Assembly: GCA_007131725.1 (NCBI GenBank)
Contig: SLPZ01000262.1
Location: 1-43,235, forward strand
From: Balneolaceae bacterium
Lineage (GTDB): Bacteria > Bacteroidota > Rhodothermia > Balneolales > Balneolaceae
Direction: 5' to 3'
DNA length: 43,235 nt
Of the stretch, positions 37,582 through 42,499 are shown in pieces (the first letter of the stretch is position 1; each line of letters begins with the position of its first letter). The notes below the pieces were generated by a model. It had not been told where the DNA came from and ran no database searches. It was given only the letters and a program-made list of their open reading frames with translations. A program made the position numbers and the translations under genes.

Positions 37582-37946
37582 GATACCCGTATTACTCCAA
37601 ACTTGAATATGTGCACCGATCAGGACATATCCCGTCCGTCAAACCGAAGCACAATTCAAGAAATATCCCGCTTCCAAATTCGATAAACAAGTACTTTTAG
37701 AGAAACTGTCCTGAGAAGCTGGTTTGACTGAAATCTTCTTGTTCATCAAAAGACTAAAAGGCTGCTAATGAACAAAAACGCATAGAGTGAGTGCATATGC
37801 ATACACAGTTTTTCAGCCTTTCATAGTTTACTTCTACCAACAGAAACTTACCATAATTTTAAAAATCTGTTAATACTTAACTTGCCAGAATATATTTTTG
37901 TGTCATTCGTTTTCAATCTGATTTACAAAATTTAATTTAGTTGTTA

Positions 37947-37983
37947 CTTGAAGATGTACAGGCTTAGTGTATATATTCTACAC
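37947..37983 (+). promoter_or_regulatory. Promoter overlapped by a dyad, candidate operator
   Basis: CTTG (37947-37950), 19 bases, then TATATATT (37970-37977) resembles the -33/-7 pattern used elsewhere in the window. The dyad GTGTA-N7-TACAC (37967-37983) covers the -7 region, as a repressor site would. A wider imperfect inverted repeat TACTTG/CAAGTA (37945-37950 and 37988-37993) encloses it. The regulator is unknown; a Fur/Zur-type repressor is a guess from the downstream genes. Confidence 0.45.
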
Positions 37984-38000
37984 ATCCAAGTAAGTATCAC

Positions 38001-38306
38001 ATGATCAAAAAGAGTAACCCGAACATATCAGCTTTATTTGCAGTAATCATCGCTTTCGGGATTACTATATCAAATACACATGTTCATATCCATGAGTTTC
38101 ATGATGCCGGAGCGAACTATGTTTCGGTTGATGAAGAATTGCACTGTGTTATTTGCGGATCAGTAGTCAATTTCAACCCCGAAGCTTATACCCAATCTTT
38201 TTATAAGGATACTCCAGAACTGAGTCTCTTTTCGGAGAAAACCGAACACGCCAACCAGCCTTATAATAAATTTCAGGAAGGCCGCTCTCCTCCCGCTGTT
38301 GTTTGA
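38001..38306 (+). CDS. Small exported His/Cys-containing protein
   Basis: A 101-residue protein with an N-terminal hydrophobic segment (ALFAVIIAFGITIS), either a signal peptide or an anchor. Directly after it comes NTHVHIHEFHD with four His, and then ELHCVICGS with a CxxC pair. Such a layout can bind a transition metal in the periplasm, but no known family was recognised. It is the first gene of the region that leads to the lipoproteins and the TonB receptor, with a promoter and dyad just upstream. A role in metal delivery or sensing is inference. Confidence 0.72.
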   Translation: MIKKSNPNISALFAVIIAFGITISNTHVHIHEFHDAGANYVSVDEELHCVICGSVVNFNPEAYTQSFYKDTPELSLFSEKTEHANQPYNKFQEGRSPPAVV

Positions 38307-38321
38307 TCACTTATCTTTTCA

Positions 38322-38404
38322 GTTACACAGCTTTTACCACTTAAATTTTCATCTTCGCACAGATCACATGATAAACTGTGAAACCTGTGGTAACAAGCTG
38401 TAAC
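38322..38404 (+). promoter_or_regulatory. Nested intercistronic hairpin (candidate cis-regulatory RNA)
   Basis: Arms at 38322-38340 and 38387-38404 pair over 17 bases, interrupted only by a two-base and a one-base bulge (GTTAC, AGCTT and TTACCAC with their complements). Inside, CACAG (38358-38362) pairs with CTGTG (38376-38380), with ATC-ACAT-GAT in the loop. No T-run follows, so it is not a standard terminator. It could also be a palindromic repeat. Confidence 0.55.
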
Positions 38405-38445
38405 TCAATTAAACAATTTTAAACCTGAAAAGATTATAACGAAAT

Positions 38446-38509
38446 ACCCTGAGGCAGAGCTATCAGGGTGCCGCCCAGATCAGACTTTTTAAAGTTTAAA
38501 GACCCGGGC
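38446..38509 (+). promoter_or_regulatory. Second and third leader hairpins before the first lipoprotein gene
   Basis: ACCCTGA (38446-38452) pairs with TCAGGGT (38463-38469). Next, GCCC (38473-38476) can pair with GGGC (38506-38509) around CTTT/AAAG (38485-38488 and 38498-38501). It ends about 50 bases before the lipoprotein start. No known riboswitch family is recognised. Confidence 0.4.
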
Positions 38510-38561
38510 ATTTATAAACCATTCCAACTATTAATTCATTAAAAATAATAAAGTTATAGCT

Positions 38562-39320
38562 ATGAAAATTTATACTAAGCAACTACTAATACTAATTTTA
38601 TCCATATTAACTTCAGCCGCATTTTTTACGGCTTGTAGTGACAGTTCAACCGGGACGGATCCTGATGCCGATCCTGAGGTTGTAGGATTTGTCATTGAAA
38701 TTGAAGGTGTTGAAATCGTGAGATATCAAAACGGGTCGTATACTTTTAACGATGCAGCCGCAGTAGAAGAGTATGTTTTTAACAATACATTTATGCTCAG
38801 CGATACTTACAATGGTGGCAATCTCACCAGAACATCTGCTGATGAAGAGGAAATCGGGGGAAGAAGATACTTCACTCCTTCCATTTTTGTTCGTTTCATC
38901 ATGGATGATGGTGAAATTGTTGAACTGCCTCAAGAGCGGGTATCCGGAGCCAGCGGCGACGTTTCTGCTGATGAAATCAATCCAGATGGACATTATCGAA
39001 TGAATGTTTCATGGGATCAACCAAATGATTCGCGCGGTTCCAATATTGAGCAGCACGGAAGCGATCAGTCCTGGGGTTTTCACCTGCGAGCCGATCGTGT
39101 AGGGACTGCCGGCATGACCCTGCGTCTTGATCGATGCGAAGATGTTATTTCTATTGAAAGTGTTTCCGGAGAAAATCACAGAGTTGATCAAATCCGAAAT
39201 TGCGCAACCGATGATGAAACTATTTTTGAAGCAAGTTCAGCAATGCCAGTCACCATAGATGATTATGAACTTGCTGAAGATGGTTTATACCCACACAACC
39301 GGTTTGAACGGCAAAGATAA
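38562..39320 (+). CDS. Lipoprotein of a TonB-receptor-linked family, paralogue 1
   Basis: A 252-residue exported protein with lipobox FFTAC (Cys25). The opening GFVIEIEGVEIVRYQNGSYT matches the second lipoprotein downstream (GFQLEIDGEILVRY), and both have a region of the form VRF/IRW-x-D followed by a hydrophobic LPQ motif. It also contains EQHGSDQSWGFHLRAD. Similar lipoproteins occur, to my recollection, next to ZnuD-like receptors in related bacteria, but no function is established. The C-terminal part with two Cys (DRCEDV and RNCATD) differs from the paralogue. It is followed by a terminator, so expression may be uncoupled from the next gene. Confidence 0.82.
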   Translation: MKIYTKQLLILILSILTSAAFFTACSDSSTGTDPDADPEVVGFVIEIEGVEIVRYQNGSYTFNDAAAVEEYVFNNTFMLSDTYNGGNLTRTSADEEEIGGRRYFTPSIFVRFIMDDGEIVELPQERVSGASGDVSADEINPDGHYRMNVSWDQPNDSRGSNIEQHGSDQSWGFHLRADRVGTAGMTLRLDRCEDVISIESVSGENHRVDQIRNCATDDETIFEASSAMPVTIDDYELAEDGLYPHNRFERQR

Positions 39321-39362
39321 TTGTAACTCAATTTTATTTTGTACCCCAAATCATTATCCGAT

Positions 39363-39397
39363 TCCGGCAGTTTGACCACTGCCGGATTCTTATTCTT
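39363..39397 (+). terminator. Terminator after the first lipoprotein gene
   Basis: TCCGGCAGT (39363-39371) pairs with ACTGCCGGA (39378-39386) over a six-base loop, followed by the T-rich TTCTTATTCTTT. It lies between the two lipoprotein genes and may attenuate rather than fully stop transcription. Confidence 0.75.
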
Positions 39398-39432
39398 TAA
39401 AATACATTTTTCAATCAACCCATAAATTAACC

Positions 39433-40056
39433 ATGTGTTATTTAAACCGTTCAATCAAACTGTTACTTGTACTTATTCTGACAGCTTTTGTGGTAATTTC
39501 ATGCGAAGACAACCCTGCAAGCTCTGATGAATTTGGTGAACATGCCGAAGCATTCGGATTTCAGCTCGAGATTGACGGAGAGATTCTTGTCAGATACTTT
39601 TTACGAGAGTACACTCTTGACCCTAACGGCAACTTTCCACAATATGTTAAGCACGGCTCAGATGATGAAACACCGGGTTATATGCATAATGGAGACGGAT
39701 TGTTTTTCTCAAGTACAGATGCTGTTGATAATATTACAGAAGAAATTACCATACGCTGGATTGACCGCAATGAAGTGGTCTTTGATCTTCCACAACTTAA
39801 TGAAGAAGAGGGAGGCACAGCAGGCCTTTTCGGAGAGTGGAACCTCGAGTTCAGATATAAATATGCAAATACCAGTGATGTAAAACCTGTAGAAGAACGA
39901 AACTTCACTGATATTTATGATATGAATGAAGAGACATGGAAATTCTCATTCGAGCTGCTTTCAGAAGGACGCACTGATTTGAGAATCAACCTATTCCACA
40001 TTGACCATGCTGACCTTACACCTCGGCCTCTTCCCATTTACATCGAAATGGATTGA
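39433..40056 (+). CDS. Lipoprotein of a TonB-receptor-linked family, paralogue 2
   Basis: A 207-residue protein with lipobox VVISC (Cys24) and then CEDNPASSDEFGEHAEAFGF. It shares its N-terminal core with the upstream lipoprotein. Its end, HIDHADLTPRPLPIYIEMD, is a compact His/Asp-containing motif that may touch a metal or the receptor. I know of no described function. It sits 127 bases before the TonB receptor gene on the same strand, in a gap with a hairpin but no terminator-like T-run, so co-transcription with the receptor is likely. A surface-exposed capture or handover role is inference. Confidence 0.82.
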   Translation: MCYLNRSIKLLLVLILTAFVVISCEDNPASSDEFGEHAEAFGFQLEIDGEILVRYFLREYTLDPNGNFPQYVKHGSDDETPGYMHNGDGLFFSSTDAVDNITEEITIRWIDRNEVVFDLPQLNEEEGGTAGLFGEWNLEFRYKYANTSDVKPVEERNFTDIYDMNEETWKFSFELLSEGRTDLRINLFHIDHADLTPRPLPIYIEMD

Positions 40057-40100
40057 TTTTTCAAAATTTATCAGGAGATCTGACATCTTTCTTCTATTTT

Positions 40101-40129
40101 TCCGTTGATTTATCTATACCCTCAACGGA
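40101..40129. repeat. Hairpin between lipoprotein 2 and the receptor gene
   Basis: TCCGTTGA (40101-40108) pairs with TCAACGGA (40122-40129) around 13 bases. No T-run follows. TATAAT at 40151-40156 might be a -10 element, but no matching upstream box is seen. Confidence 0.5.
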
Positions 40130-40183
40130 GCCAGCGAAGTGAAGCTATGTTATAATACAGTTGTGATTTTTTAAATACATCCC

Positions 40184-42499
40184 ATGAATATTAAGCTGCA
40201 AAATATTTTTATACTCTTTTCAGCACTATTGCTACTGGTTTCTTTATCATATCCCCAGTTGCTTCTTGCAGACACTGAGCCGCCGGCAGATGAATCTGAC
40301 CGGGGAGTTATTAAGGGATATTTATTAGACACTGAAACCAATGAACCAGTGAGCAACGGCTCCATTATGATTGAAGGAACCGACCGGGGAGCTGTTAGCC
40401 ATGCCGATGGTGATTTTATTTTCCGTAATGTTTCTTCTGGCACACAGATCCTTCGCGCTCAACACATTGGTTACGAACCGGGTTTTGCAAGTGTAGAGGT
40501 AATTCCAAACGATACGGTTGAAGTTTCTATACGGCTCTACTCCAGAACGATACGAGGCGATGAAATTCAGGTTACTGCAGATTATATTAGAGACGATCAA
40601 ACCACAAATATTGAACGGGTAATGACAGGCCGCACCCTACGTCAGCAATTGGGCCGAACAATTGCTGAAACTCTGCATGAAGAACCCGGACTTGCACAGA
40701 GAAGCATGGGCCCGGCCCCGGCTCGTCCGGTATTAAGAGGGCTTGGAGGCGACCGGCTGCTGATACTGGAAGATGGCGGAAGAACCGGTGATCTTTCCGC
40801 AACTGCCGCAGATCATGCTCTTGCCATTGAACCGATGACTGCAGAGCATATAGAACTGATTCGTGGCCCATCTGCACTCACCTACGGCTCCAACACAATG
40901 GGCGGTGTTATCAACGTGATAAGAGGGCAGATTCCCCGAGATATGCCAGATCACATTCACATGAGTGGAAGTACTCAGGCTGAGACAGTAAACACAGGCT
41001 ACGCTGCAGGTATGCGGACATATGGCCCATTACTCAACAATTTTGCTTTTCGAATTGATGGTAGCTTTCGCGAAAGCCGGGATATTGGAACTCCGACCGG
41101 AACACTTGAAAACACCGGTATAACAACCTATAATGGCTCAATGGGACTAAGTTATATCCGATCCTGGGGAATGCTTGGTGTCTCAGGAAATTTGATGGAC
41201 ACCAAATATGGAGTGCCGGGAGGAATTGGCATTGCCGATGCTCATCCAAACGGTGTGGATATTGAGATGTTCAGAAGATATACCGAATTAAGAGGACGTT
41301 TTGATATGCCGGGCAGTTTTCTTGACAGGCTTGATCTGGATGCAACATACTCCTACTATAAACACGAAGAACTGGAAAAGCCCACGTTTGAGACAGATCG
41401 AAGAATTGTAGGCTCAGAATTTGGTGTAATAACCACCAATACTAAAATACATCTCCACCACAAAGAATGGTCGATCATTGAAAAAGGCCTTTTAGGCATT
41501 TGGGGTGAACATCGCGATTATGCATCTGGTGCTTTTTCTGAAACACCGGAAACAATCGAAAAGGCAATTGCAGCCTACACTTTTCAAGAGACTAACCTGG
41601 GTAATTGGAACCTCCAGGGAGCTCTTCGGTTCGATGTTCGCCAGGTAACCCCCAGTGAGGAACGGAACTCTTTTTTGATAGGACACATCAGAGAACGAAC
41701 GTTTAGTGGTTTTTCTGGTTCGGCCAGAGCTGCATATTTCATTGGTTCCAATATAAAAATCGGGAGTACAATAACAAGAACATTCCGTGCTCCTGGCATC
41801 GAAGAATTATTTTCTGAGGGTCCCCATCTGGCAAATTTCTCCTATGAGAAAGGGAATCCAGATCTGCGTGCTGAACGAGGATGGGGTAGTGAATTATTTT
41901 TTACAACAGATATAAATCCAATTCATTTTCATATAGCTCTGTTTCGGAACCAGATGGATAACTACATTTTCCCAAGAGATTCTAATCAGCGTGCAACAAG
42001 GCGAGACGACTTGAATACGTTCATTTTTATGGAACAGCAAGTATTAATGACTGGAATAGAGATGAATCTAAAATATGATTTGTCTAACCAATGGACAACT
42101 GGAGGGTCTGCAAGTTATGTCAGGGCAGATTTCATTTCCGATAGTCGCTCTTTTCCAATTGCCCGATTTGACAGGTCTGAAGAAGGAGTGCCGATGATTC
42201 CTCCGCTCACAGCCCGAATGTATCTTGAATGGAGAAACTCAAATTTAACACTGGGAGCTGCATCAAGAATGGCAGCAAGTCAAAATCGGATCGACATATT
42301 TGAAGAACCAACCGATGGATATGTTCTTTTTGACCTTTATGGACAATATCATTTTAGTTCTGGAAAATATCTTCACACCTTTTCACTAAACTTCGAAAAT
42401 ATTGCAAACACGGAGTATAGAAACCATCTTTCTCGCATCAAATCCATAATGCCGGAACCAGGTATGAATCTGAAACTTCTTTATCGGTTTTATTTTTGA
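40184..42499 (+). CDS. TonB-dependent outer-membrane receptor, ZnuD-like
   Basis: A 771-residue receptor that uses TonB energy to import a ligand across the outer membrane. After the signal peptide comes a carboxypeptidase-regulatory-like domain (about 46-130, GVIKGYLLDTETNEPVSNG). The plug (about 145-250) has RPVLRGLGGDRLLILEDGGR, DHALAIEP and ELIRGPSALTYGSNTMGGVINVI. A 22-strand-type barrel follows, ending in LLYRFYF with the terminal Phe. The plug pattern resembles ZnuD, the neisserial zinc receptor. His-containing loop stretches (IHLHHKE) are present, but the long His-rich loop of ZnuD is not obvious. The metal is therefore uncertain, and haem or another chelate remains possible. Confidence 0.88.
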   Translation: MNIKLQNIFILFSALLLLVSLSYPQLLLADTEPPADESDRGVIKGYLLDTETNEPVSNGSIMIEGTDRGAVSHADGDFIFRNVSSGTQILRAQHIGYEPGFASVEVIPNDTVEVSIRLYSRTIRGDEIQVTADYIRDDQTTNIERVMTGRTLRQQLGRTIAETLHEEPGLAQRSMGPAPARPVLRGLGGDRLLILEDGGRTGDLSATAADHALAIEPMTAEHIELIRGPSALTYGSNTMGGVINVIRGQIPRDMPDHIHMSGSTQAETVNTGYAAGMRTYGPLLNNFAFRIDGSFRESRDIGTPTGTLENTGITTYNGSMGLSYIRSWGMLGVSGNLMDTKYGVPGGIGIADAHPNGVDIEMFRRYTELRGRFDMPGSFLDRLDLDATYSYYKHEELEKPTFETDRRIVGSEFGVITTNTKIHLHHKEWSIIEKGLLGIWGEHRDYASGAFSETPETIEKAIAAYTFQETNLGNWNLQGALRFDVRQVTPSEERNSFLIGHIRERTFSGFSGSARAAYFIGSNIKIGSTITRTFRAPGIEELFSEGPHLANFSYEKGNPDLRAERGWGSELFFTTDINPIHFHIALFRNQMDNYIFPRDSNQRATRRDDLNTFIFMEQQVLMTGIEMNLKYDLSNQWTTGGSASYVRADFISDSRSFPIARFDRSEEGVPMIPPLTARMYLEWRNSNLTLGAASRMAASQNRIDIFEEPTDGYVLFDLYGQYHFSSGKYLHTFSLNFENIANTEYRNHLSRIKSIMPEPGMNLKLLYRFYF

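Follow-up and report, generated by a model that had tools for sequence, protein, structure and literature searches.

The window analyzed here, a 43,235-nucleotide (nt) stretch of a Balneolaceae bacterium (contig SLPZ01000262.1, designated G000:C319, of a 3.84-Mb draft genome that is 88.6% complete), harbors four serial genes on the + strand (positions 38001 to 42499), encoding a small exported protein, two lipoproteins (A and B) and a ZnuD-like TonB-dependent receptor, which we propose, with a probability of roughly 0.6, to represent a zinc-acquisition operon in which a metal-sensing nascent peptide, rather than Zur, sets expression. The gene calls were confirmed, and all five elements described in the initial annotation of this region (a dyad-overlapped promoter, a His/Cys protein, two lipoproteins and the receptor) were located on the + strand, while its designation as a metal-acquisition locus is supported by the comparisons presented below. 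Judged from these comparisons, the module is real, conserved and hitherto unannotated, and it probably functions in zinc uptake, its regulator being of a type already known but probably serving a new role. The module, its motifs, the zinc-ligand set of the receptor and the exclusion between Zur-type boxes and the small upstream open reading frame (ORF) are supported at the sequence level; arrest at Arg-Ser-Pro-Pro (RSPP), metal sensing through HxH and CxxC, and control of the downstream genes in cis are projected from relatives, and the identity of the metal as zinc and the activation of the operon under low zinc draw on both.

The small ORF (38001 to 38306, +) specifies a protein of 101 amino acids (aa), which possesses a signal segment, the candidate metal ligands HVHIHEFH (38079 to 38102, +) and CVIC (38145 to 38156, +; within CVICG), and the C-terminal sequence GRSPPAVV. 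The last of these, which had been absent from earlier remarks on the locus, is the key feature of the protein, its arrest-like motif R95-S96-P97-P98 (38283 to 38294, +) being followed by the stop codon three codons later. The layout of RAPP-like regulators, i.e., a small secreted protein with an R[A/G]PP-like motif near its C-terminus (here RSPP, at residues 95 to 98 of 101) whose gene lies directly upstream of the genes it accompanies, is found here. Because it combines a signal segment, HxH, CxxC and RxPP with the first position in the operon, the ORF has the anatomy of a translation-arrest regulator comparable to the copper-responsive CruR of Bordetella, making it a candidate arrest-peptide metal sensor. 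The initial annotation had suggested that the protein receives or senses the metal; its metal-ligand motifs were confirmed, but it is probably no stable metal-binding partner, the ORF more likely acting as a regulatory leader upstream of the operon whose product ends in an arrest motif. No match that would name the protein was found in Pfam or NCBIfam.

Conservation of these motifs was assessed in an alignment of 43 distinct small ORFs, prefiltered for HxH, Cys and R[ASGD]PP, and in a scan of 29 lipoprotein-family loci of the phylum, which relied on R[ASGD]PP only and recovered HxH as well. Within the alignment, the two histidines of HxH are kept in 43/43 and 42/43 sequences and the first Cys of CxxC in 42, with the second in 38, and the terminal motif reads RAPP in 26, RSPP in 14, RGPP in two and RDPP in one. 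The motif is specified by 34 different 12-nt codings across these 43 ORFs, which argues that it is kept at the protein level. In the 29-locus scan, the upstream ORF of 27 loci was found to end in R[ASGD]PP plus zero to eight (usually three) residues. The 29 loci contain 585 ORFs with 50 or more codons, and the 28 that end in this manner are all these upstream ORFs. Of 2,260 ORFs in other loci, 7 do so, all seven again being upstream ORFs of such operons, leaving a background of 0 among approximately 2,250 ORFs outside them. Two loci (L205, positions 37 to 360 and 393 to 815, and L157) carry a tandem pair of differing RAPP upstream ORFs before one lipoprotein-receptor operon. The upstream ORF of L184, an operon of the two-lipoprotein type, resembles that of L199, which is of the one-lipoprotein type, a likeness which suggests that leaders may be exchanged between operons.

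Lipoprotein A (252 aa; 38562 to 39320, +) and lipoprotein B (207 aa; 39433 to 40056, +) each harbor a signal segment and a lipobox Cys, and they are true paralogues, alignable throughout (BLASTP, 24% identity over 192 residues, E = 2e-8). The former is distinguished by an EQHGSDxSWxFHxRAD block and a PHxRxxRxR tail and the latter by an HxxHxD motif (FHIDHADL). The description of these proteins as an uncharacterised family holds, since no match to the family was detected in Pfam, NCBIfam or PDB sequences, and the family accompanies ZnuD-like receptors; neither a match to the MbnP-like Pfam domain in any of 30 family members nor a SusD family match for the lipoproteins was obtained. AlphaFold2 (AF2) models predict confident immunoglobulin (Ig)-like sandwiches (mean predicted local distance difference test [pLDDT] scores of 79.7 for A and 86.0 for B), for which the PDB offers middling Ig-like matches only (best Z scores of 7.0 and 7.1) and no specific relative, rendering the fold uninformative. 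In operons with a single lipoprotein, one protein unites EQHGSDGxWxFHxRAD, HxxHxD or a variant thereof, and an HxRxKCR tail; in operons with two, A retains the EQHGSD-type block and the tail and B retains HxxHxD. The motif H-x(2-4)-H-x-D-[FY] recurs in each of the 23 listed members that are more distant within the family, and short relatives of approximately 160 aa mostly combine it with EQHxEDGxWxFHxHAE and with His clusters after the lipid-bearing Cys. Such motif distributions suggest that the lipoproteins bind metal and that gene duplication may have split the ancestral sites of a single lipoprotein between A and B.

A search with lipoprotein A identified the family in 22 of 58 relatives, and a profile search identified it in 53 of 395 genomes of the phylum. 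The initial annotation had proposed co-occurrence with the receptor as the check on its reading of the lipoproteins, which its absence would have refuted, and such co-occurrence is evident: nearly all loci fetched from relatives are ordered small ORF, one or two lipoproteins and receptor, and upstream ORF, lipoprotein and receptor follow one another in 27 of the 29 phylum loci, with the contig of L157 stopping before the receptor. The exceptions are G040, where Zur-type boxes are present instead, and L180. The relatives in which this lipoprotein occurs are metagenome-assembled genomes (MAGs) of Balneolaceae and Balneolia, one of which, a Balneolaceae MAG, carries identical genes, among those compared, at SKYV01000114; isolate names such as CSSed, read at face value, point to soda-lake sediment as the origin of these MAGs.

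The receptor (771 aa; 40184 to 42499, +) comprises an N-terminal carboxypeptidase-regulatory-like domain, a plug and a barrel, as assigned by Pfam. ZnuD is its top match both among NCBIfam models (185 bits) and in the PDB (4rdr, E = 5e-34). A receptor-lipoprotein pair of SusCD type is not indicated, the receptor scoring 19.7 bits with the SusC/RagA model against a cut-off of 368. The zinc ligands of ZnuD are Asp99, His100, Glu340 and His499 (PMC4557270), and the alignment places equivalents of all four in the window receptor. D210-H211 (40811 to 40816, +), corresponding to Asp99-His100, and H548 (41825 to 41827, +), corresponding to His499, are each conserved in 24/24 receptors of these operons; E396 (41369 to 41371, +), corresponding to Glu340 and lying in an HxE motif, is present in all 24 printed strings, from which its conservation was read, the counted column being that of residue 395, one before. 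The DH pair is missing from the copper receptor OprC and from the colicin I receptor in the same alignment, and the window receptor contains no Cys.

Further evidence on the metal is provided by operons from families f3 and f4 of the same taxonomic order, which lack the upstream ORF. These harbor instead one to three TGCAA-N5-TTGCA palindromes, of the Fur-family 7-1-7 type and enriched relative to a reversed control, and encode receptors which are mostly 53 to 66% identical over the aligned part. The palindrome (candidate Zur-type box sequence TGCAACTNAGTTGCA, with L093 as the associated Fur-family protein) is also found upstream of a Fur-family gene next to a MerC-like one (L093, L101 and L107), of a gene for a COG0523 GTPase (L091 and L103) and of a metal ATP-binding cassette (ABC) operon (L096) which includes an MntR-like regulator. 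The nearest NCBIfam models of these products are Zur for the regulator (49 bits), ZigA for the GTPase (554 bits, cut-off 600) and AztC for the binding protein (192 bits). Zur regulons in the literature repeatedly include 7-1-7 boxes, COG0523 proteins and TonB receptors (PMC6103462), and because the contents of the box-preceded genes fit this pattern, we interpret the palindrome as a Zur box and the f3 and f4 operons as zinc importers. In L093, L101 and L107, the MerC-like membrane protein, whose gene follows the Fur-family gene, ends in a His-rich tail, giving the appearance of an autoregulated zur-merC pair. Another lipoprotein, of approximately 290 to 300 aa (CNFDSLSHNDRALADSLL...), is encoded in L092 and L100, with a TonB receptor following it in L092; Zur-type boxes stand before it in G040 and G055, and it probably marks a second zinc-linked uptake locus.

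The box and the upstream ORF appear to be nearly mutually exclusive. When scored as TGCAA-N5-TTGCA with at most one mismatch within 300 bp, the box occurs in 6 of 7 operons that lack the ORF; among operons that possess it, the counts are 0 of 10 in Balneolaceae and 1 of 28 in the phylum set, or 1 of 38 taken together (Fisher P = 6e-4 and 6e-6, values which make the result look more certain than it is, as the operons are phylogenetically related and a few loci are shared by both sets); under the same settings, no Zur-type box was found at the window operon. The receptor tree places the ORF-bearing group of the window as sister to the box-bearing group of G040 within one clade, with the ORF-bearing operon L191 branching earlier, and since the two groups are sisters inside a single clade, the mode of control has changed at least once. 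One genome (G057) carries both types, L198 being a two-lipoprotein operon with Zur boxes and no ORF and L190 a one-lipoprotein operon with the ORF and no box. The box-associated regulator has a strong ortholog in each of the 23 genomes from the other families (E <= 4e-27), but in the genus and family of the window matches are missing or weak (<= 63 bits), and the one Fur-family protein found in the window's own genome looks like Fur. We do not claim that Zur is absent from the whole genus, since Fur-family members of a more distant kind occur there.

Because the ZnuD ligands are conserved and Zur-type boxes stand on sister operons, zinc is most likely the metal concerned, in preference to iron or copper. 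It is conceivable, though unlikely, that the operon instead imports copper, either free or chelated, that the small ORF is an ordinary CruR-like copper sensor and that the receptor residues form a general divalent-metal site. Such a role would agree with the copper responses of CruR and CutF, the relatives in layout (PMC9426467, PMC9973294), with the suitability of CxxC for Cu(I), and with a DUF2946 match in one homologue, L026, weak though it is (E = 0.016, below the cut-off); the window protein itself gave no match to this domain (PF11162) at E <= 1. It is countered by a receptor that is closest to ZnuD, with four zinc ligands and no Cys, by the lack of the DH pair in OprC, and by the Zur-type boxes on sister operons, whose receptors are 62 to 66% identical. 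Moreover, the second Cys is lost in 5 of the 43 small ORFs while HxH is retained, a pattern which better suits zinc held jointly by His and Cys.

Two other functions of the small ORF were weighed. Its export signal and metal-ligand motifs would also befit a stable periplasmic or surface metal binder which takes part in transport and has no regulatory role, yet this appears improbable, as RxPP, the most conserved feature besides HxH and Cys, follows no metal-binding logic and is an arrest motif, the stretch linking it to the HxH/CxxC region is barely conserved among homologues, and the ORF invariably opens the operon and gives way to Zur boxes in sister operons. It is highly improbable that the ORF is an arrest peptide which monitors export, whether through Sec, YidC or lipoprotein transport, instead of metal, since its conserved HxH and Cys pair adjoin metal-uptake genes and no secretion gene is present in the operons examined, even though these ORFs carry signal segments and RAPP peptides upstream of sec genes are described as export monitors (PMC10987492, PMC12992588).

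A zinc-acquisition operon under nascent-peptide control would be expected to operate as follows. When zinc is scarce, a ribosome translating the small ORF would stall at Arg-Ser-Pro-Pro, and the downstream genes would stay on, either because the stalled ribosome shields the mRNA from Rho or because it alters the structure of the 255-nt intergenic RNA. Once zinc becomes available, its binding to the His/Cys ligands as the nascent chain emerges would relieve the stall and shut down the operon. The receptor is predicted to import zinc via a buried Asp-His-Glu-His site, and the lipoproteins are proposed to act with it at the outer membrane, their candidate role being zinc capture or help in loading.

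The intergenic region between the small ORF and lipoprotein A (38307 to 38561, +) is structured, in that the fold of positions 38250 to 38600 (-66.6 kcal/mol, z = -2.8) was not equaled in stability by any of 100 shuffles, and it contains a long nested stem (38313 to 38434) which begins 7 nt past the stop codon of the small ORF. The matching gaps in the phylum set measure 52 to 159 nt. The region has no Rfam family match, and a mobile element was ruled out, as it is single copy in the genome. The fold of the 5' leader RNA is no more stable than that of shuffled sequences. Between the lipoprotein genes lies a strong intrinsic-terminator-like hairpin, TCCGGCAGTTTGACCACTGCCGGA + TTCTTATTCT (39363 to 39386, +), which renders a single full-length transcript uncertain; it may lower distal expression, split the operon or end a short transcript.

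Upstream of the small ORF, a consensus scan identified the promoter-like hexamers TTGAAG-18-TATATT (37948 to 37977, +), one of 11 such sites in the region against 7.3 expected. An inner dyad, GTGTA-N7-TACACA (37967 to 37984, without strand), overlies the -10-like TATATT as a candidate operator. With an N7 or N8 spacer, it lies ahead of the small-gene homologues of L026, L030, L031, L032, L034, L037 and G004 (with one base changed in L032 and L034), and it occurs as a single GTGTA-N7/8-TACACA in the whole 3.84-Mb genome and in G014, in both cases at this locus. Because it recurs in relatives and is found only once in the window's genome, the inner dyad is more than a chance occurrence, and it may be a single-target operator which imposes transcriptional control in addition. 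Its lone genomic copy would imply either a one-target regulator, for which no candidate was found, or a promoter feature that acts on its own. An outer inverted repeat (37944 to 37993; 15-nt arms at 37944 to 37958 and 37979 to 37993, 80% complementary) is not kept in the relatives inspected. A regulon based on this outer dyad was considered and rejected, as a search with the half-site TACTTGNNNATGTA produced one other exact match, inside a gene for a metal-transporting P-type ATPase, and no enrichment over a reversed control.

This kind of regulator, the metal-sensing arrest peptide, is already known. CruR of Bordetella pertussis is an exported protein with CXXC and RAPP, and its gene is the first one before a TonB receptor gene which it regulates; metal relieves its arrest, upon which Rho terminates transcription (PMC9426467). 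In a 2025 study (PMC12992588), arrest of CruR at RAPP is reported in vitro, RSPP is partly arrest-competent in related peptides, and RAPP or RGPP upstream ORFs precede TonB receptors across Gram-negative bacteria. The survey in that source counts by annotation and, in the parts examined, includes no link to zinc, no lipoprotein family, no RSPP variant and no exchange with Zur boxes. The CruR-bfrG(crtA)-bp2921 operon (PMC9426467, PMC12914433) resembles that of the window in its small exported first gene product, CXXC, long intergenic region and TonB receptor; it differs in responding to copper, in encoding a PepSY_TM protein rather than lipoproteins, in the CrtA family of its receptor and in the placement of its small protein in DUF2946. 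In CutF-cutO of Rhodobacter capsulatus (PMC9973294), an exported nascent peptide likewise combines a Cys metal motif with a C-terminal proline stall motif and controls the next gene through an RNA stem-loop, although that system serves copper oxidase production, metal enhances its stalling and no TonB receptor is involved. Neisseria ZnuD (PMC4557270) shares with the window receptor the plug and barrel sequence and all four high-affinity zinc ligands; for ZnuD, however, the literature examined mentions neither an upstream ORF nor a lipoprotein partner, and the window receptor scores below the curated threshold. Searching of the open literature retrieved neither zinc arrest peptides nor ZnuD with lipoproteins in Bacteroidetes. 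ZnuD itself is Zur-controlled.

Several points weigh against the proposed zinc-responsive arrest mechanism. The studied CXXC/RAPP regulators of this layout answer to copper, and the effect of zinc on CruR is moderate (PMC9426467). The window motif, RSPP, is weaker than RAPP in tested systems, and the 185 bits of the receptor fall short of the curated ZnuD cut-off (NF038289, 950 bits). The Zur box is assigned from gene content and not from binding. Distant Fur-family members (<= 63 bits, 33% identity) are present in some congeners, and the genome is incomplete, so Zur may yet occur in this lineage. Finally, the hairpin at 39363 to 39386 could uncouple lipoprotein A from the remaining genes.

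Copper is the metal to which the metal-sensing arrest peptides in the literature examined respond, and gene neighborhood hints at nickel or cobalt. We consider the chances evenly balanced that, as this phylum evolved, a zinc-sensing arrest peptide replaced Zur, or was replaced by it, on one and the same zinc-uptake operon, and that a new family of zinc-binding outer-membrane lipoproteins serves ZnuD-like receptors. If so, nascent peptides could take the place of a classical repressor, and zinc homeostasis could be run by nascent-chain sensing, with natural operon pairs available for comparing both modes of control. A widespread, unannotated lipoprotein family would gain a function, and it would be suggested that ZnuD-like zinc import in this phylum needs a lipoprotein partner.

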